DNA from: a virus
Strand: one strand, 5' to 3'
IMG/VR virus record: IMGVR_UViG_3300046007_005408
Span: 1 to 20,506 of that record
Length of the DNA stretch: 20,506 nucleotides
The translations under genes were made by a program, and so were the position numbers. Of the stretch, positions 1-17,961 are shown piece after piece. The notes beneath the pieces are model-generated. The model saw only the letters and a program-made list of their open reading frames with translations, did no database searches and was not told where the DNA came from. Every line of letters starts with the position of its first letter. Position 1 is the first letter of the stretch.

Positions 1-1357
1 TTTTATCTAAATGTTTATTCTTATTAAGAAATGCACCACTTAGAGTATCTTGTCTATATGCATTAGCACGGAAAGGCTCGATACTAGGAGAAGTATTTCC
101 CATAATAATACTTGAAGAGGCTGTAGGCGCAACCGCCATTACATGGCTACATCTTACTCCATATCCTTCGGCATCAGGAGCTTCTCCACGTTCTTTAGCT
201 AGTAATGCATTGGCTTCTTGCAACCTAGTTTCCATAGTACTAAATATTTTAAGATTTTCAGCTCTTGCTTGAGGTGACTCTATAGCAATATTTTTAGATT
301 GTAAGTAACTATGGAAGCCTAGTACACCTACACCTACTGAACGCTCATTTTCTGCGGAATAGATAGCTCTATGTAGTTCTAAAGGAGCATCTTCAATAAA
401 CGTAGTAAGTACATTATCTAACATTTCTAGTACATCCTGGAAGAATAACTGATTGTCTTTATATTCATCCCAGTAATCTAGGTTAAGGCTAGATAAGCAG
501 CATACTGCTGTTCTATCTTCGTTAGTAGGTAGTTCAATCTCTTGGCACAGATTAGACCCATTAATACGTAAACCTTGATTGATTAACCACTTTGGCAAAG
601 CATCATTTGCAGTATCAATAAAATGTAGGTAGGGCTCTCCAGTTTGAAGCCGTGTATCAATAATTTTTTGCCAAATCTCTTTAGCAGAGGTAGTGCGTAT
701 AACTTTACCATTAGGGTCTTTCAACTCCCAAGAGTCATCGTAGTCTGGATTCTCCATACAAGCTTCAATAATTTCCATGAAGTCATCTGTTATATTTACG
801 CCATGATGTAAATTCATACAGCGTATATTCTGGTCTCCAGTAGGTTTACGCATTTCAATAAACTGAATAATATCTGGGTGACTAACATCTAAATAAGCTG
901 CATAAGAACCACGACGTGTAGAGCCTTGTTTATATGCTAAACAGTGCGCATCATAAATCTTTAGGTGGGGCATAACTCCAACTGATTTATCATCAGCACT
1001 ACGAGTATTCATTGTAATACCTACTCCACCTCCAGAAACAGATAGCCATGCAGTTTCTGATAGAGTATCAATTAGACCACTAGTAGTATCTTCATTAGTA
1101 GATAAGAAGCATGAGATTGGTAATCCTTTCTTACTACGCCCATGAGCTAAAATAGGCGTGCTATAAGATAGCCAGTGTTTACTAGCATAGTCATATAGAC
1201 GCTGGGCATGTGCAGTATTACTACTAAAGGTAGAGGATACTTTTTTGTAGCGTTCCTGTGGGGAGTGCTCTTCTTTAGTCATATAAGATTCTTTAAGACG
1301 TTTTAGTCCTAATTCATCAAATAGAGCGTCTCGGCTTAAATCAATCTTTACGGTCAT
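1..1357 (-). CDS. nrdA: Ribonucleoside-diphosphate reductase, large (catalytic) subunit, partial
   Basis: Class I ribonucleotide reductase alpha subunit, which reduces ribonucleoside diphosphates to deoxyribonucleotides with a radical-generating beta subunit that is not in this window. The ATG is at 1357 and 452 residues are visible before the window edge; the C-terminus is missing. The active-site block NLCQEI gives N269, C271 and E273, matching the catalytic Asn-Cys-Glu of E. coli NrdA. C83 (in LPISCFLS) and C286 (in AVCCLSSLNL) match the redox-active cysteine pair. GGGVGI and a late PTASSS loop also fit the family. The protein starts only about 80 residues before the first redox cysteine, so the N-terminal ATP-cone allosteric domain of E. 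coli NrdA is absent. Its start lies inside the end of the tiny Cys-rich gene upstream. The family is near certain; subclass Ia versus Ib is not settled. Confidence 0.96.
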   Translation of the reverse strand, partial: MTVKIDLSRDALFDELGLKRLKESYMTKEEHSPQERYKKVSSTFSSNTAHAQRLYDYASKHWLSYSTPILAHGRSKKGLPISCFLSTNEDTTSGLIDTLSETAWLSVSGGGVGITMNTRSADDKSVGVMPHLKIYDAHCLAYKQGSTRRGSYAAYLDVSHPDIIQFIEMRKPTGDQNIRCMNLHHGVNITDDFMEIIEACMENPDYDDSWELKDPNGKVIRTTSAKEIWQKIIDTRLQTGEPYLHFIDTANDALPKWLINQGLRINGSNLCQEIELPTNEDRTAVCCLSSLNLDYWDEYKDNQLFFQDVLEMLDNVLTTFIEDAPLELHRAIYSAENERSVGVGVLGFHSYLQSKNIAIESPQARAENLKIFSTMETRLQEANALLAKERGEAPDAEGYGVRCSHVMAVAPTASSSIIMGNTSPSIEPFRANAYRQDTLSGAFLNKNKHLDK

Positions 1358-2777: not shown

Positions 2778-3229
2778 TTGAACCTCGGCTTTTCATGCTC
2801 AAGCCAATCATCTAGCTTTGCAGTAAATAACTGGTGACCATCTATGTTTAAAAATGCATATCTATAATCATCTGTACTTGGGGGGTCTCTAAATGCAACG
2901 AATATTTTACTACGGTCAAACTTATATATTAGCAGAGGTTTACGACTAATCTGTGCTGACTCTCTAATTGTTTGCAACCACCATTCTAATAATTGGGGGG
3001 TTTTATCTGTAAGTATTTTACTTGTGAAGTGGTCATCTTTATAGTGTTTTACTTCTATACAGTAAATATTCAAACTATTGGCTAAGTATAGGTCCCCCTT
3101 TAAACCGTGGGAGGCATGTAAACCACCACTAAGCGGTACTCGTTTAAAATCTAAACCAGTTTTAGTTTTTAGTACTTTAGCTATATCAGACTCTGCTCTA
3201 GCGCCTTTAGCTCTACTATCTACTGCCAT
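2774..3229 (-). CDS. Putative Holliday-junction resolvase-like nuclease (T5 D14 position)
   Basis: A 151-residue protein with a PD-(D/E)XK nuclease pattern resembling archaeal Hjc-type resolvases: an early acidic residue (Glu13, in ARAESD), then Asp46 (in GLKGDLYL), then Glu59-Val-Lys61 (in IEVKHYK), preceded by a basic RVPLSGG loop at 30-36. This spacing matches the metal-binding core of that fold. The likely role is cleaving branched DNA made by recombination-dependent replication. It lies between the SbcC and flap-endonuclease genes, where T5 carries D14. Its stop overlaps the TTG start of the flap endonuclease by 4 bases. Fold assignment is fairly secure; junction specificity is inference from the family and neighbours. 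Confidence 0.75.
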   Translation of the reverse strand: MAVDSRAKGARAESDIAKVLKTKTGLDFKRVPLSGGLHASHGLKGDLYLANSLNIYCIEVKHYKDDHFTSKILTDKTPQLLEWWLQTIRESAQISRKPLLIYKFDRSKIFVAFRDPPSTDDYRYAFLNIDGHQLFTAKLDDWLEHEKPRFN

Positions 3230-3416
3230 ATTTAGGTATCCCTTTAGACATTATAATATGGTCATTAGTACCATCAGTATATATTACAGTACCCTCTCCG
3301 TCAGCAATACCTAGTCGGTACATCTCCCTACATAAATCATCAAGAGTTTTATCAAACCCTTTTTCTCTACAAGACATAAAAAAGTCCTGCCTAACGTGCT
3401 CCATATTTAAGTACAT
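3216..3416 (-). CDS. Hypothetical protein, 66 aa
   Basis: Unrecognised small soluble protein between the SbcC-like and D14-like genes. The SbcC stop and this ATG share one base (TAATG), and its end overlaps the start of the D14-like gene by 14 bases, so it is embedded in the coupled operon. AGGA about 7 bases before the ATG supports the start. The first half is helical and charged (DKTLDDLCREMYRLG) and the second half looks like beta strands (EGTVIYTDGTNDHIIM). There is no signal peptide or membrane segment. The context suggests an accessory recombination role, but no function can be given. Confidence 0.75.
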   Translation of the reverse strand: MYLNMEHVRQDFFMSCREKGFDKTLDDLCREMYRLGIADGEGTVIYTDGTNDHIIMSKGIPKYGSR

Positions 3417-5248
3417 TACTCAATCCTAGATATATTATTTTCTTTAATTACTGAAACTTTCTCTATTAGAGGATGACTATATCCATGAGATACTAAAATA
3501 GTATTAAGATGCTCTTCTTTTAGTAGAACTTCTACTAAACGCTCTTTACCATCTACATCAAGGTTATCAATAGTTTCATCAAGTACCAATAAATTAATTC
3601 GTACAGCTGATAGGGTTTGCATTAGTTTACGAATTGCTAAAAGAGTAGCTGTATTAACTCTAGCTCGCTCACCACTAGATAAAGCAGAAATATCTATCTC
3701 TGTACCATTATCTACTATAACTACATTTAATTTATCTGATGCACCCATTACAAAGTTAATTTGAAACCTACCATCACTTAATTCAGCTAAGTACTGATTA
3801 GTAAGATTTTGTAAATCTTTAACCATACACTCAATTTTATAGGCTACTAAACCATTAGTACTGAATGTCTTTTGTAGTAGTTGAAGTGTAGCTAGGCGTG
3901 TTTCTAATACTGATAACTTATTGCCTAAATCAAGTAATTCCGCACTATACGCAGCCATTTGCTCAGTAATAACTTCTACTTTAGTATTATGTGCAGCTAT
4001 CTTAGTATTTTTAGCAATAATATCTGCTACAGCTTCTTGCTGTAGTTTAATATTTCTTTGCGCATGGTGTATTTCATCTTTTAAATTCTTAATAGTCTGC
4101 TCTGTAATACGCTTATCTTGTAGAGCCTCGGGCATAGTAGGGTCAATAAGTGCATTATAGTTCTCATACTCTGTTTTATAATTAGCTACTCGTTCAACCC
4201 ATTTTCTGTCTTGCTCGGCTGCTTCAATAATTCTGAAGAGCTCTGTTCCTCTTTCTTCTGCAATTCTGATTTGCGTTTCTTGTTCCAGTAAAAGCTCTCT
4301 AGCTTTGGTATTATCAATCTCATGTGAGCACGTTGGACATTTATCATTAAGCTTCCCCATCTTACTAATAAAGGATTTTGCTGACTTAATAGTATGTTGA
4401 ATACCTGCGTATTCTTCACTCTCTTTTGATACATCTTTTACTACTGGTAGCTCTACACTTAACTCCTCTAAAGGAATTTTTGCTTGTAGTGCTTTATACT
4501 CATTATTACGAGTAATCTTTTTATTTGTAGCCTCTATATTAGTTAGGCTTTCAGTTAAATTCTCTATTTGAATAAGTTCTGCACGCAAATCAAGTTCTTT
4601 TACTACTGGAACTTCTTCTAGTTCTTTAATAGATAAATCACTGGACTTGGCTTTATCTAACCAACTTTGGTTTGTATTAATCTTTGCTGTAATTTCTACT
4701 ACATCAGTATTTACAGTTTTAACAAGCTCTTTGAAAGTATCATGAGCTTTAGTATAATGCTCAAGATTTAGTAAGTTTATTAAAAACTTCTTTCTATTAG
4801 TATCTGTAGCTGTAAGGAATTCTAGGCTTGAAGCCGAGCTTTGATAGATTAACTGTGCAAAACTACTACTATCAAGACCAATTACTTCTTCTATTAGTTT
4901 TAAAGTGCCTGTCGCTGTATGGGAACTAATATCTATACCATTTTTAGTAAGTTTGGTACTACTAGAAGCGCCCCTAACTGTTTCAATCTTATAAGTATCA
5001 CCATCTTTATTAAAAGTTAGCTCAATACTATATTTCTTAGCGTTGGAGTATCTATTAAGAACATCAGCACGCTTAGTGCCCTTAGAGTTCTTATTATAAC
5101 ATACTTCTTCTAGTAATAAACCAATACTGGACTTACCATGTCCGTTTTTACCAACTAACTGTACTATTGGGTCTTTATCTAGGGTTAGAGAATTATTAGG
5201 CCCATAAGAGAAACAGTCGCTCCAGTTTAGGGTCTGCAATGTTATCAT
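3416..5248 (-). CDS. D13: SbcC/Rad50-like recombination nuclease ATPase subunit (T5 D13-like)
   Basis: SMC-family ATPase subunit of the SbcCD / T4 gp46-gp47 type nuclease complex, which opens DNA ends and hairpins for recombination-dependent replication. The 610 residues show the full architecture: Walker A GKNGHGKSS at 33-41, a long charged coiled coil (about 150-290), a zinc hook CPTC (Cys304, Cys307) at the midpoint, a second coiled coil (about 310-460), the ABC signature LSSGERARV from residue 523, Walker B LLVLDET with Asp557/Glu558, and the H-loop VSHG. Its partner nuclease is encoded just upstream, separated only by a glutaredoxin gene. The ATG overlaps the glutaredoxin stop by 4 bases. 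The hook is intact, so dimers can tether DNA ends. Confidence 0.97.
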   Translation of the reverse strand: MITLQTLNWSDCFSYGPNNSLTLDKDPIVQLVGKNGHGKSSIGLLLEEVCYNKNSKGTKRADVLNRYSNAKKYSIELTFNKDGDTYKIETVRGASSSTKLTKNGIDISSHTATGTLKLIEEVIGLDSSSFAQLIYQSSASSLEFLTATDTNRKKFLINLLNLEHYTKAHDTFKELVKTVNTDVVEITAKINTNQSWLDKAKSSDLSIKELEEVPVVKELDLRAELIQIENLTESLTNIEATNKKITRNNEYKALQAKIPLEELSVELPVVKDVSKESEEYAGIQHTIKSAKSFISKMGKLNDKCPTCSHEIDNTKARELLLEQETQIRIAEERGTELFRIIEAAEQDRKWVERVANYKTEYENYNALIDPTMPEALQDKRITEQTIKNLKDEIHHAQRNIKLQQEAVADIIAKNTKIAAHNTKVEVITEQMAAYSAELLDLGNKLSVLETRLATLQLLQKTFSTNGLVAYKIECMVKDLQNLTNQYLAELSDGRFQINFVMGASDKLNVVIVDNGTEIDISALSSGERARVNTATLLAIRKLMQTLSAVRINLLVLDETIDNLDVDGKERLVEVLLKEEHLNTILVSHGYSHPLIEKVSVIKENNISRIE

Positions 5249-5454
5249 AGACCTGCCTGTTCTCTACTAATGAAACTTTGAGATACTTCATCAAATATTT
5301 GGGGCACTGACCTAAAGCCGGCCTCTAATACTTTGATTTTACCTTCTACATCTTTATCAATCAATACTGTATTATAGGGAATATTTTTAGCATCTAATTC
5401 TTTCTTCAAGCTTTCACAACCTGGACAATTAGTTTTAGAGTATACTGTAATCAT
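5245..5454 (-). CDS. Glutaredoxin / NrdH-like redoxin
   Basis: A 69-residue thioredoxin-fold protein with the dithiol active site CPGC at residues 10-13, a strand-turn-helix start (ITVYSKTNC) and the cis-proline loop VPQIF. The length matches glutaredoxins and NrdH proteins. It probably reduces the redox cysteines of the phage ribonucleotide reductase encoded at the left edge. It sits between the two SbcCD subunit genes with 4-base ATGA overlaps on both sides, so it is translated in step with the nuclease rather than with nrdA. AAGGA lies 5 bases before its ATG. Fold and active site are clear; the choice between glutathione and thioredoxin reductase as electron donor cannot be made from sequence alone. 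Confidence 0.93.
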   Translation of the reverse strand: MITVYSKTNCPGCESLKKELDAKNIPYNTVLIDKDVEGKIKVLEAGFRSVPQIFDEVSQSFISREQAGL

Positions 5455-6444: not shown

Positions 6445-7089
6445 TTAAAGGTCTTTAACAGCCTCTTTTTCTGCAACGCTAGCTGCTGTATCTTCAGTTT
6501 CGTCACCACCAGAAGTAATACGCTCAAGTGACGCTAAGATTTCTGCTGAAGTGGCACGAGGATACAACTCATCAATATCTTTAGCTTCTTTTACAGCTGC
6601 ACGCTCTGCATCATTCAATGCACGTGGTTTGCAACGTAATACTGATAAAGTGTACTCAACGTTAAATGGTAGAGGACCTGTTTTAGCACGTTTAAATACT
6701 ACATCCCAACCTTTATCTAAATCTGTAGGGTCGCCCAAATCTTCGGCAGCACTAAGGATTTGCTCAAATAATTTCTTTTTAAGGTTAAGAACCTTAACTT
6801 TACCATCAGTAGGGTCGATACAGTTGATTGAGTATGCCCAAGAACATTTAACGTCTGGGAAGAACTTCTGTACATGGTCTACCTCTTTATTAGTGAACTT
6901 TTCTTGTTCACGGTCAAAAGACAAACACTCTAGTGGAATATCTTTATTATTAGTACCTTTTACCCAGTATACATAACGTGGTAAAATGCCACCGATTAAA
7001 CGTACTGAGTTTTCTCCATCTTTGTAAACATATGAGTCTACTGAACTTTTAACTGCCTTACCTGCTGTTTTACCAAATGCTAATGCCAT
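6445..7089 (-). CDS. Single-stranded DNA-binding protein (gp32-like)
   Basis: A 214-residue protein with the general plan of phage replicative ssDNA-binding proteins. It has a short basic N-terminus (FGKTAGKAVKSS), an OB-fold-like middle rich in aromatic and basic residues (RYVYWVKG, VKCSWAYSINC, VLNLKKKLFEQI), a conserved-looking GWDVVFKRAKTG strand pair, and an acidic tail (GGDETEDTAASVAEKEAVKDL region). Such tails recruit replication partners. It would coat template and recombination intermediates and coordinate polymerase, helicase and SbcCD. It has its own transcription unit: the promoter at 7515-7543 reads through the 123-aa gene into it and a terminator follows directly. AGGA lies 7 bases before the ATG. 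By position it corresponds to T5 D11; I infer that rather than know it. Confidence 0.85.
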   Translation of the reverse strand: MALAFGKTAGKAVKSSVDSYVYKDGENSVRLIGGILPRYVYWVKGTNNKDIPLECLSFDREQEKFTNKEVDHVQKFFPDVKCSWAYSINCIDPTDGKVKVLNLKKKLFEQILSAAEDLGDPTDLDKGWDVVFKRAKTGPLPFNVEYTLSVLRCKPRALNDAERAAVKEAKDIDELYPRATSAEILASLERITSGGDETEDTAASVAEKEAVKDL

Positions 7090-7100
7090 TTGTATTTCCT

Positions 7101-7472
7101 TTATTCGTATTTAAAGTTTAATTGATTTTTTACTATTTTTAATAGCGGATTTGTTTGAATCTTATCTATATTTAGGTCTGGGAAGAAAGTTAAATCTAAA
7201 GATGTAATCCCATATTCTGCATATACTCCATACTCTCTTTTTCCAGCTAGTATGATATACTGGGCTTTATGCGTTACTAATGTTTTAGTATCGTTAAATA
7301 AAGACTTTGGATTAGTTAAATAACTTGTACCACCGAGTAAAGAATACTTTGGTAAATAATAACCATTAAGGTTTTTATTCTTATATAGGTAGTAATCATA
7401 TAGTGATTTAACTAATTTATTACTATCACCGTTTGCTTCTTTTAAAAGGTTATCTAGATTATAGAATAGCAT
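7101..7472 (-). CDS. Hypothetical protein, 123 aa, first gene of the ssDNA-binding protein operon
   Basis: Unrecognised soluble protein, the first gene behind the promoter at 7515-7543 and 11 bases before the ssDNA-binding protein start. It is unusually rich in Tyr, Asn, Leu and Lys (LYDYYLYKNKNLNGYYLPKYS). The N-terminal third is helical, and the rest looks like mixed alpha/beta (AQYIILAGKREYGVYAEYG). AGG lies about 7 bases before the ATG. No catalytic motif, membrane segment or zinc site is visible. Co-transcription with the ssDNA-binding protein suggests early abundant expression and a role near DNA replication or host takeover, but this is only context. Confidence 0.82.
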   Translation of the reverse strand: MLFYNLDNLLKEANGDSNKLVKSLYDYYLYKNKNLNGYYLPKYSLLGGTSYLTNPKSLFNDTKTLVTHKAQYIILAGKREYGVYAEYGITSLDLTFFPDLNIDKIQTNPLLKIVKNQLNFKYE

Positions 7473-7514
7473 TTGTGCCTTTTAAAAATTATTGTTTTCT
7501 CAACTCAAGATAAT

Positions 7515-7543
7515 ATTATACGCTCATTTGTAATATTTGGCAA
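7515..7543 (-). promoter_or_regulatory. Sigma-70 promoter P1 for the 123-aa gene and ssDNA-binding protein
   Basis: On the minus strand the -35 box is TTGCCA (7543-7538) and the -10 box is TATAAT (7520-7515) with an exact 17-bp spacer. The transcript start should be near 7508, leaving a leader of about 35 bases before the ATG at 7472. Sequences upstream of the -35 (AAAATTGACTTG) and downstream of the -10 (TATCTTGAGTTGAGAAAA) recur at the other two promoters in the window. It lies in the only gap between the D10-like helicase and the 123-aa gene. Confidence 0.88.
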
Positions 7544-7589
7544 GTCAATTTTATAGCAACCCCTAGCTTAAACTAAAAGTTTTCGTTGC

Positions 7590-15055: not shown

Positions 15056-15802
15056 TTAAGCCGCTGCTTTAGCTTCTGCTTTAGCACGTTTAGCTGCACC
15101 GTCATAATCAGCACAAGTGATACCACGACGTGTTAACAATGTTTTCAAACCACGGTCTGTTTTACCAGTAGCTTCTACTAATTGAGCTAAAGTCATATTA
15201 GCTACTTTAGAACCTAAAGCTTCAATAACATCTTCTGATGCTTTAGCATGGCTTTCTTTTTGTGCAGGAATACCGTCAATTTGACCTTGACGAGTTAAGC
15301 TTAATGCTTTACCACGTACTGATGCAACTTTCTTACCTAGAGCTTCAGCGATTTCTTCAATGAAGGAACCTGCTTTAACCATTTTGATAAACTTAGCTTC
15401 TTCAGCTTCAGTATATGTACGAACTGCTTCAACTTTCTCAGCAGCTTTAACACTACCAGTCAATTCCAAAGCAAGAATTTTACCTTGAACTTGTTTAGCA
15501 TTGAACTCGCCACCGTTGAATTTTTCAGCAATATCTTTATAAGTATATTTGCCTGCATTTGCATTAACGAAGTCTGCCAAATCAGCTGATTGCTCTTCAG
15601 TAAATGTAGCTGTTTTAACTTTAGCCATTGACTCTACTGTGAAGTCAAGTTGACGCAATTTAGCAGCAACTGAACGAACGCTCAAACCTAATGCTTCTGC
15701 TGCTTTTTCTACTGTTGCACCTGATACTGGTGACTCTGAACCTACGATAGTATTCAATTGAGCTACTGTTTCGTCATTCCATTTTTTAGTTACTTCTGTC
15801 AT
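15056..15802 (-). CDS. D5: D5-like DNA-binding protein with repeated HTH-like domains
   Basis: A 248-residue, Ala/Lys-rich protein that I match to the early DNA-binding protein D5 of T5 by position, size and composition. It appears built of tandem helical DNA-binding repeats, each opening with an aromatic residue and acidic stretch and containing an IAE.LG.. .V..V..K type helix-turn-helix: about 8-57 (starting KWNDET), 65-115 (TFTEEQ), 128-180 (TYTEAEE) and a divergent 188-233 (ALGSKVANMTLAQLV). The C-terminus is a basic Ala/Lys tail (AKRAKAEAKAAA). Codon choice is more regular (GCT, GAA, CGT) than in neighbours, typical of high expression. It follows ligB by one base and ends at a strong terminator. 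It probably binds DNA widely or regulates early transcription; the T5 match needs alignment. Confidence 0.82.
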   Translation of the reverse strand: MTEVTKKWNDETVAQLNTIVGSESPVSGATVEKAAEALGLSVRSVAAKLRQLDFTVESMAKVKTATFTEEQSADLADFVNANAGKYTYKDIAEKFNGGEFNAKQVQGKILALELTGSVKAAEKVEAVRTYTEAEEAKFIKMVKAGSFIEEIAEALGKKVASVRGKALSLTRQGQIDGIPAQKESHAKASEDVIEALGSKVANMTLAQLVEATGKTDRGLKTLLTRRGITCADYDGAAKRAKAEAKAAA

Positions 15803-15803
15803 A

Positions 15804-16562
15804 TTATTTTTCCATTAAATTTATGAACTGACTTAAGTCAGTTACGATTTGTAATCCGCGCTCTTCTGCGGTAGTTCTTTTTGAGCTGCCTTTACCACTT
15901 TCATCTACTAGAATACTTACTGCTTTAGTTAAAGTATCAACAACTATATACCCCAAAGTGTTCAATTTAGCAGTTGCCTCTGCTTTAGTTTTGAAACTGC
16001 TGAGTTTACCTGTAATACAAATTGTGCCTAAAGTTAAATTACTTTGTACTGCCTTTTTCTCTTTGAAATCAAAAGGTAGAAAGTCTTTTAATTCTTGATA
16101 CTCAAACTCTTTCCATTCTAGTAAATTGGCAGAAGCCTTATCGCCCAATCCTGCCTTTTTACAGTTATCTAAGGTAATATCTTCAAAAGAGTTAATAACA
16201 CTAGCGAGCTTTGAAGAGAGTGTGTTTCCAACTAAGGGAATACTCATAGACGCCAATACTGTGGCGAAGTCTGCTTGTTTACTTTTCTCAATTTCATCTA
16301 ATAACTTAGTTGCTACTTTACTTCCTAGAATTTCTGTTGCTTCTACTGCGTCTAGGTAATATAAATCAATTATAGACTCTAGCCCAAGTTTCTCAATAGT
16401 TTTCTCACCCATGCCTTTAATACCCATGTTTTTTGCAAAGGATATTAACTTTCCACTAACTTGAGCAGGGCAAGTAATATTTCTACAAAAAAGCTGAGCA
16501 TTTACTAATTCCAGAGGACTGGAACAGCAAGGGCAAGAGGTAGGGGCAACTATTTTTTTCAT
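15804..16562 (-). CDS. ligB: NAD-dependent DNA ligase, C-terminal subunit (split ligase)
   Basis: C-terminal half of a bacterial LigA-type ligase made as a separate protein, as in T5. From the ATG at 16562 it has 252 residues: a four-Cys zinc finger (Cys10, Cys13, Cys26, Cys31), helix-hairpin-helix repeats (MGIKGMGEKTIEKLG, SIPLVGNTLSSKL, AGLGDKASANLLEW regions) and a BRCT domain (about 175-250, with ICITGKL and GKGSSKRTTAEERG). These parts grip nicked DNA; catalysis comes from the partner LigA. A TTG six bases further upstream is an alternative start, but the ribosome-binding site is weak for both. It has its own promoter (16612-16640), unlike a simple split inside one operon. Confidence 0.95.
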   Translation of the reverse strand: MKKIVAPTSCPCCSSPLELVNAQLFCRNITCPAQVSGKLISFAKNMGIKGMGEKTIEKLGLESIIDLYYLDAVEATEILGSKVATKLLDEIEKSKQADFATVLASMSIPLVGNTLSSKLASVINSFEDITLDNCKKAGLGDKASANLLEWKEFEYQELKDFLPFDFKEKKAVQSNLTLGTICITGKLSSFKTKAEATAKLNTLGYIVVDTLTKAVSILVDESGKGSSKRTTAEERGLQIVTDLSQFINLMEK

Positions 16563-16611
16563 TGGCAAGTGTCTTTTTTAATAATTGTTTGTTTTTTCAT
16601 TTCAAGATACT

Positions 16612-16640
16612 ATTATACAGAAATTTGTTATATAATGCAA
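16612..16640 (-). promoter_or_regulatory. Sigma-70 promoter P2 for ligB and the D5-like gene
   Basis: On the minus strand -35 is TTGCAT (16640-16635) and -10 is TATAAT (16617-16612), 17 bp apart. The start of transcription should be near 16605, about 43 bases before the ligB ATG. Upstream AAAATTAACTTG and downstream TATCTTGAAATGAAAAAA match the other two promoters. It lies in the 95-base gap between ligA and ligB. Confidence 0.88.
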
Positions 16641-16657
16641 GTTAATTTTTTTAATGC

Positions 16658-17614
16658 CTAACCATTAACCTTATGTGTGATGCATGGAATGATACTACCT
16701 GCCCTTATAACATGAACAGTATCACCGATTTGAATATCTAAAGCCTCAATAAAGTCAATATTATTTAATGTTGCCCTAGTAATTTTTGCATCTTCAATGA
16801 CTACTTCTTCTAGTATGGCTACTGGTGTAACTTTACCACTTTTTCCTACTTGCCATACTACATCTAATAAAATGGTGTCTGCACCCTCATTTCTTTCTTT
16901 TAGAGCATAAGCCCCTCTAGGGAACTTAGCAGTATAGCCCATTTCATTAAATACTTTATTACTATTTACTCTAAATACCATACCATCGCAAGGGTATGTT
17001 TTATCTAACTCAAACTCTCCATGAGCAGTTTTGAAGCCCTCTCTACGAAGCTGTTTCATATCATCAACATAGGTATCATGGATATTAGGCTGTACGCCAT
17101 AAGCAAAGAACTCTAGAGCACGGGTTTTGAACTCTGTTGTATCTTTTAGATTTAAAGAACCTGCCGCATAATTACGGGCATTTTCAATATGCTTAGGAGC
17201 CATTACTTCACCAGTAATTTGTACTACACCCATCTGTTTAATTTTATGGGGTATAATATTAGATACTAAGAACTTATCCGTAATAACCTTGCCCTCAATA
17301 CCATCGCCACGAGTCATTACCCGTGATAAAGTACCATCAATATAAAGAATATCAATAGCGGCTCCGTCAAGTTTAAGACTATATACAACATCACTGATAC
17401 CTTCTAATGGTTTTTTCATGTCCTCACCCTCATAGAATTTTTGAAGGCTATACATTTGGAAATAGTGCTTTTCTGTATCTTCGTGCTGTTTAGCACCTAC
17501 GGAACCGTAGCCAATAGAGTCTGCTAAAGCATCAAATACTTCATCGCTTATAATAGGACTACCATTATAGTAGGCTTCTGAACACGCATCTAAATATGTT
17601 TTAATGTTTTGCAT
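16658..17614 (-). CDS. ligA: NAD-dependent DNA ligase, N-terminal adenylating subunit (split ligase)
   Basis: Catalytic half of the split NAD-dependent ligase. The 318 residues have an NAD/NMN-binding Ia-like region (YYNGSPIISDEVFDAL and HYFQMYSLQKF), the adenylation motif KLDG with nucleophilic Lys81, Asp83 and Gly84, MTRGDG, GEVMAPK, the DGMVFRVN motif and the KERNEG segment, then an OB-fold start (VVWQVGKSGKVTPVAILE). It lacks the zinc, HhH and BRCT parts, which the next gene supplies. It seals nicks left after flap removal. The promoter at 17642-17670 is a perfect consensus and the leader is only about 20 bases with a poor ribosome-binding site. Confidence 0.95.
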   Translation of the reverse strand: MQNIKTYLDACSEAYYNGSPIISDEVFDALADSIGYGSVGAKQHEDTEKHYFQMYSLQKFYEGEDMKKPLEGISDVVYSLKLDGAAIDILYIDGTLSRVMTRGDGIEGKVITDKFLVSNIIPHKIKQMGVVQITGEVMAPKHIENARNYAAGSLNLKDTTEFKTRALEFFAYGVQPNIHDTYVDDMKQLRREGFKTAHGEFELDKTYPCDGMVFRVNSNKVFNEMGYTAKFPRGAYALKERNEGADTILLDVVWQVGKSGKVTPVAILEEVVIEDAKITRATLNNIDFIEALDIQIGDTVHVIRAGSIIPCITHKVNG

Positions 17615-17641
17615 TTTGTTCTTTTCTCAATTTAAGAAACT

Positions 17642-17670
17642 ATTATACGCTATTCTGCTTTATCTGTCAA
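17642..17670 (-). promoter_or_regulatory. Consensus sigma-70 promoter P3 for ligA
   Basis: On the minus strand -35 is TTGACA (17670-17665) and -10 is TATAAT (17647-17642) with a 17-bp spacer, a perfect consensus. The -35 box overlaps the end of the PC4-like gene. The transcript should start near 17635, some 20 bases before the ligA ATG. Downstream TTTCTTAAATTGAGAAAA matches promoters P1 and P2. Confidence 0.93.
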
Positions 17671-17961
17671 GTCTTTAATTTTATCGCTAAAGTGCTTTGT
17701 TATAGAGTCTACTGTTTCTGCTTTGGCACATAATTCAATTAAGGCATCTAATATAGCATAAATATTTTGAATACTCATAGGAATTGATATTCCTTCTTTA
17801 CTAGGGGCATATTCGCCCTCAAAGGTTTGGAAATACTTCCTAATATGCAAATACTCTACATCACGGAAAAGATTAGCTACTACTCTTAACTGGTATGCTT
17901 TTACTTCATTACTATAAATTGTGCGTTCAAAGATTGTTTCGCTTACTGGTTGTTCTGCCAT
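17650..17961 (-). CDS. PC4/p15-like ssDNA-binding protein
   Basis: A 103-residue homologue of the eukaryotic transcription coactivator PC4. The core (about 23-80) has the family pattern: a strand with LRVVANLFRDVEYLHIRKYF (hydrophobic strand then IRKY at 40-43), then PSKEGISIP at 53-61, then the C-terminal dimerising helix (NIYAILDALIELCAKAE). PC4-fold proteins dimerise and bind ssDNA, and a PC4 homologue has been described in phage T5 and linked to recombination-dependent replication. The start codon follows the stop of the 95-aa gene with no gap. Its end carries the -35 box of ligA. The N-terminal 20 residues are variable. Confidence 0.82.
   Translation of the reverse strand: MAEQPVSETIFERTIYSNEVKAYQLRVVANLFRDVEYLHIRKYFQTFEGEYAPSKEGISIPMSIQNIYAILDALIELCAKAETVDSITKHFSDKIKDLTDKAE

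Follow-up and report, generated by a model that had tools for sequence, protein, structure and literature searches.

Three sites on the minus strand of the window, a virus record of 20,506 bases that covers a fragment of the T5-like early replication region of an uncultivated phage, are probably T5-type strong early promoters for the host sigma-70 polymerase, in which a conserved block past the -10 box would be tuned for productive initiation and escape. This reading is built on sequence comparison with T5 and its relatives. The initial annotation had reported three look-alike promoters with a conserved part past the -10, and both observations hold: each site has an exact TATAAT and a 17-bp spacer, and the 20 bp that follow the -10 are identical at 14 of 20 columns in all three copies and at 16 of 20 in every pair (see the table).

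The window keeps the T5 gene order: ligA, ligB, D5, helicase D6, primase, DNA polymerase, D10, T5.125, SSB/D11, D12, D13, D14, D15 and dut, with D3- and D2-like genes preceding ligA. Megablast with the whole window found nothing in the phage collection, so the two share no near-identical DNA, and among the matches listed its ligA is at most 48% identical to ligA of named phages. The three promoters are syntenic with annotated T5 promoters at all three places, ahead of early replication genes: the SSB-operon promoter corresponds to P31A/P31B, upstream of T5.125-D11, the ligB promoter to P-K28a/b, between ligA and ligB, and the ligA promoter to an annotated promoter upstream of the same gene. 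The -35 and part of the spacer of the ligA promoter fall within the 3'-terminal part of ORF 17650-17961, which lies upstream. As for gene starts, the ORF list begins ligB at a TTG (16568); a likelier start is the ATG at 16562, with which the start in the relative G001 aligns. Close to the end of the window, positions 20-1198 (minus strand) weakly match T5 NrdA (24% over 500 aa, E 1.6e-12) and may encode a distant ribonucleotide reductase.

Features of the three promoters and of the neighbouring genes in the window
Feature	Coordinates	Strand	Description
Promoter 1, T5.125-like/SSB (D11) operon	7515..7543	-	-35 TTGCCA (7543-7538), 17-bp spacer, -10 TATAAT (7520-7515)
Promoter 2, between ligA and ligB	16612..16640	-	-35 TTGCAT, 17-bp spacer, -10 TATAAT
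Promoter 3, ligA	17642..17670	-	-35 TTGACA, 17-bp spacer, -10 TATAAT
AAAATT tract, SSB-operon promoter	7547..7552	-	Upstream of -35
AAAATT tract, ligB promoter	16644..16649	-	Upstream of -35
AAAATT tract, ligA promoter	17677..17682	-	3 bp further from -35 than in the other two copies
Discriminator and initial transcribed block, SSB-operon promoter	7495..7514	-	ATTATCTTGAGTTGAGAAAA
Discriminator and initial transcribed block, ligB promoter	16592..16611	-	AGTATCTTGAAATGAAAAAA
Discriminator and initial transcribed block, ligA promoter	17622..17641	-	AGTTTCTTAAATTGAGAAAA
phrog_4258 protein (T5.125-like) and ssDNA-binding protein (D11-like)	6445..7472	-	Behind promoter 1
ligB, NAD-dependent DNA ligase, subunit B	15804..16568	-	Behind promoter 2
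ligA, NAD-dependent DNA ligase, subunit A	16658..17614	-	Behind promoter 3
D5-like transcription regulator (phrog_323)	15056..15802	-	Candidate regulator

A core-only scan of the window (TTG, 16-18 bp spacer, exact TATAAT) found eight sites, and only these three promoters have the 17-bp spacer. The window holds no excess of promoter-like sites (57, against 75.4 in shuffles): what stands out is the shared extended sequence, not promoter-like sites as such. Upstream of the core, the AAAATT that had been placed before the -35 is present in all three copies; its distance to the TTG, however, is not fixed: copy 3 has 6 bp there, the other two 3 bp. All three sites thus carry the A/T (UP-like) tract of a T5-type early promoter, together with its TTG-type -35, 17-bp spacer and TATAAT, and the block stands in register with the -10, two of its scores being borderline (see below).

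That the likeness arose by chance, or by recent duplication of an AT-rich segment, is highly improbable. In favour of such an origin are the high AT content and some likeness in columns 21-40, but with 7 of 20 identical columns the likeness drops beyond the block, and chance is excluded by two nulls: no more than 9 columns were identical in any of 200,000 random triples drawn from the segments after 559 other TATAAT-like hexamers, and no more than 11 in any of 200,000 triples of AT-rich 20-mers picked at random. Moreover, against the orthologues in related phages the block retains 13-16 of 20 positions and the spacer only 8-10 of 17, and the same block recurs at many promoters of T5, of G001 and of a Serratia phage. 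At the ligB promoter (window 16550-16680, compared with G001 near 24755), the upstream flank agrees at 23 of 25 positions, downstream columns 21-40 at 20 of 20 and the spacer at 8 of 17.

We scored the window with a composite matrix trained on 31 T5 and 16 G001 sites, the window being left out and the orthologous G001 sites included; the T5 promoter at 53810, which lacks the block, and three promoters with 18-bp spacers were omitted. The three promoters scored 46.7, 39.8 and 36.4, the next-best window position -2.1, and the maximum over 60 randomised windows was 14.5. With a block matrix made without the -10 and from T5 only, the blocks at 17641, 7514 and 16611 ranked 1, 72 and 116 of 40,972 positions, and with T5 and G001 combined 1, 9 and 5 of 40,882. 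Their T5-matrix scores are 16.4, 5.7 and 4.6, the last two being borderline and near that of the T5 late promoter G25 (4.7). In composition the window blocks resemble those of T5: they are AT-rich in columns 1-13 (0.77-0.85; T5 0.87) and purine-rich in columns 9-22 (0.79-0.86; T5 0.75; after other TATAAT 0.49).

The family had been described as three-copy; it is larger. Nearly all annotated T5 early-region promoters share one layout: AAAATT, TTGC or TTGA, 17 bp, TATAAT, an AT-rich discriminator, then AAATTGA and a purine-rich run. We used 35 of the 48 annotated T5 promoters, with T5 covered up to position 118000 and "early" meaning map position and annotation rather than measured timing; the 13 others had no exact TTG/17-18/TATAAT core, or were late, lysis, pre-early or poorly placed. 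These 35 hold 14.36 bits over the 24 columns past the -10 (null mean 1.6, maximum 2.32), the information content coming near background at about column 23, so that the block fades near +17. Leave-one-out block scores had medians of 16.6 and 16.8 in two runs; 30 of the 35 scored at least 5 and five scored below. The late promoters J5 and oad and the lysis promoter scored low, G25 being the borderline case, and three pre-early promoters scored 0.3 or less in register. The initial annotation would be refuted if the block were no more conserved than among unrelated early promoters. The sets compared here check that condition in part: conservation greatly exceeds that found after other TATAAT hexamers, and the scored T5 late and pre-early promoters have the block weakly or not at all.

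Relatives extend the family further. In G001, whose ligA is 85% identical, about 17 sites (17 of 22 core sites used) hold 9.71 bits over 20 columns (null maximum 3.54). In G002, 12 early-region sites hold 9.10 bits (null maximum 5.13), whereas eight sites in or near the late region are at null level with 3.34 bits, these 20 being taken from 29 core sites. Related blocks also occur in one Serratia phage and one Vibrio phage. A strict form of the extended pattern matched a single site in one of six related contigs; exact patterns thus miss most family members. The structural half of the G002 contig (L023, about 2790-5340) also contains promoter-like sites that recur almost unchanged, in two sets, at 2955 and 4400 on the plus strand and at 2794, 4240 and 5333 on the minus strand.

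The SSB promoter shows where the block can be lost. It was compared at 16 of 17 related loci, several of them near-duplicates (L016 does not reach upstream), and the TTG-17-TATAAT core with its preceding A/T tract is kept in all. L001 and L003 carry the block, and L002 a shorter version related to it. The block is absent from the short leaders of L004, L007, L008, L009 and L012, and in L005 and L006 an ATG lies 5 nt after the -10. In six further loci the gene before SSB has its ATG 6 nt after TATAAT (-10 starts at L010:2040, L011:662, L013:537, L014:459, L015:1113 and L017:4718), which predicts a leaderless or nearly leaderless mRNA; a second site of this form occurs in L013/L032 at 4868. Since the block is missing or altered in 14 of 16 related loci despite the kept -35, -10 and 17-bp spacing, it is dispensable at the SSB promoter, where the upstream core is the stable part.

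An operator, or a site for a phage regulator, had been offered as one function of the block. An operator would recur independently of the -10 or show dyad symmetry; we found neither, the recurrence test being partly circular. When the T5 block matrix was run over T5 without the -10, having been trained on the same sites, matches directly after a -10 were 24 of 26 at scores of at least 14, 23 of 23 at scores of at least 16 and 35 of 105 at 8. The best dyad in the block has 5 of 6 pairs and lies within an AT run. The proposal is thus not supported: the block keeps a fixed distance to the -10, fades where a polymerase footprint would end and has no clear dyad. Given this register, the lack of a clear dyad and the fact that strong copies seldom lie apart from a -10, we rejected the operator as the lead reading. 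A phage regulator may read the block, but no positive sign of this was found here. By contrast, promoter escape, also among the options of the initial annotation, is the best supported of them. The fixed position relative to the -10, the fading near +17, the retention at promoters without a nearby start codon (see below) and the fact that strong T5 copies nearly always follow a -10 all argue that the block is the discriminator plus initial transcribed sequence (ITS) of T5-type sigma-70 early promoters.

The block could also mark the early class for a phage switch, in which a gpT5.026-like, D5-like or other regulator would act at the discriminator and ITS, on polymerase or DNA, turning early promoters off and late ones on. 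The class-linked distribution fits such a role: most T5 early-region promoters have a strong block, the scored late and pre-early ones a weak one or none, and in G002 early sites alone rise above the null. Reports on T5 (PMC7472727) add that the discriminator is the main difference between early and late promoters, that gpT5.026, a counterpart of which is encoded by all T5-related phages, weakens polymerase binding to -5/+2, and that the early-to-late switch is described as not understood; a D5-like gene also lies in the window. Against this, P11 has the block but is reported as pre-early, the switch still occurs without gene 026 (PMC7472727), the block is lost at the SSB promoter in several lineages, and D5 is only a candidate. 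We consider this reading unlikely. As the reader of the block, gpT5.026 itself was dropped: tblastn found no T5.026 homologue in the relatives' sequences searched, all of them fragments and so unable to exclude one. A broader version, in which the ITS marks early promoters as a class in a lineage-specific way across T5-like phages and co-evolves with a phage factor carrying the early-to-late switch and acting on the initiating polymerase, seems to us more doubtful still.

Another possibility is that the block works in the leader RNA, as a ribosome site together with an A-rich, unstructured 5' end that helps translation or the stability of the mRNA. A plausible ribosome site, GAGAGG, stands just beyond the block at many T5 promoters, and the window leaders barely fold (0.0, 0.0 and -1.1 kcal/mol). 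However, the block lines up with the -10, and in the window the ligB and SSB start codons lie a further 20-30 nt past it. A start codon follows within about 46 nt at 24 of the 35 T5 promoters. It does not at the remaining 11, some of which precede tRNA or stable RNA genes, yet taken together these retain the block (11.55 bits, null maximum 5.52), although it is absent from one of them (53810). A leader role is accordingly a poor candidate, and the ribosome site as the whole story was rejected, the block being kept at T5 promoters without a nearby start codon.

Under the preferred reading, discriminator plus ITS, all conserved parts would coincide with polymerase-DNA contacts: the A/T tract with those of the alpha subunits, the -35 and -10 with those of sigma, and the AT-rich discriminator with sigma region 1.2 and the bubble, followed by an ITS of the type WTAAATTGAGAGA to about +17. 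Most likely, the AT-rich start and purine-rich continuation would keep the initial complex productive and speed escape from a very tightly binding promoter, and fast escape would let the replication genes be transcribed quickly and often. N25, a T5 promoter of the same type, is escape-limited (PMC12464699). When its positions +3 to +20 were replaced, full-length RNA fell to about one tenth, in vitro and at this one promoter; its native ITS, purine- and AT-rich, escapes fast and controls the productive fraction, and its G-5 is described as contacting sigma 1.2 (PMC12464699). From these escape data, and from the resemblance of the AT-rich and purine-rich window blocks to those of T5, we infer that a role in escape is most likely in this phage too.

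The promoter type is already known from T5, and the window adds new members of it. Gentz and Bujard reportedly noted in 1985 homologies outside the -35 and -10 boxes of T5 promoters, which may already describe the block in part; our literature searches found no survey of the downstream block across T5-like phages. The added interest is modest and consists of the family-wide profile and the block-losing lineages: an uncultivated phage is linked to a type of promoter for which the T5 prototypes serve as laboratory standards, and lineages without the block at the same gene are natural variants for a test. Distant T5 relatives retain the ITS besides the -35 and -10 boxes, which agrees with the view of the ITS as a part of the promoter (PMC12464699).

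Compared with the strong early promoters of T5 (H207, N25, P31A/B, K28a/b, ligA, P15A and others; AY543070), the window promoters have the same A/T tract, 17-bp spacer and TATAAT, as well as the TTGC/TTGA -35, the AT-rich discriminator, the TTGA-like and purine-rich ITS and the same genes behind. They differ in clade-specific wording, TCTTRARWTGARAAAA in the window versus TTATAAATTGATGAGAGG in T5, and in the continuation of the -35, which is CAT, CCA or ACA in the window and mostly CTT or CTA in T5. The T5 early discriminator is given as ATATT (PMC7472727), and the window likewise has a class-linked sequence just past the -10; exact ATATT follows the -10 in none of the three window promoters (ATTAT, AGTAT, AGTTT) and in 8 of the 35 T5 early-region promoters themselves. 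The start base in the window is uncertain, since the window copies have T at positions 7-8 and N25 has A, T there. The N25 ITS, AT-rich and then purine-rich after TATAAT (PMC12464699), has the same arrangement as the window copies, and the A-6 G-5 of N25 are also found in copies 2 and 3.
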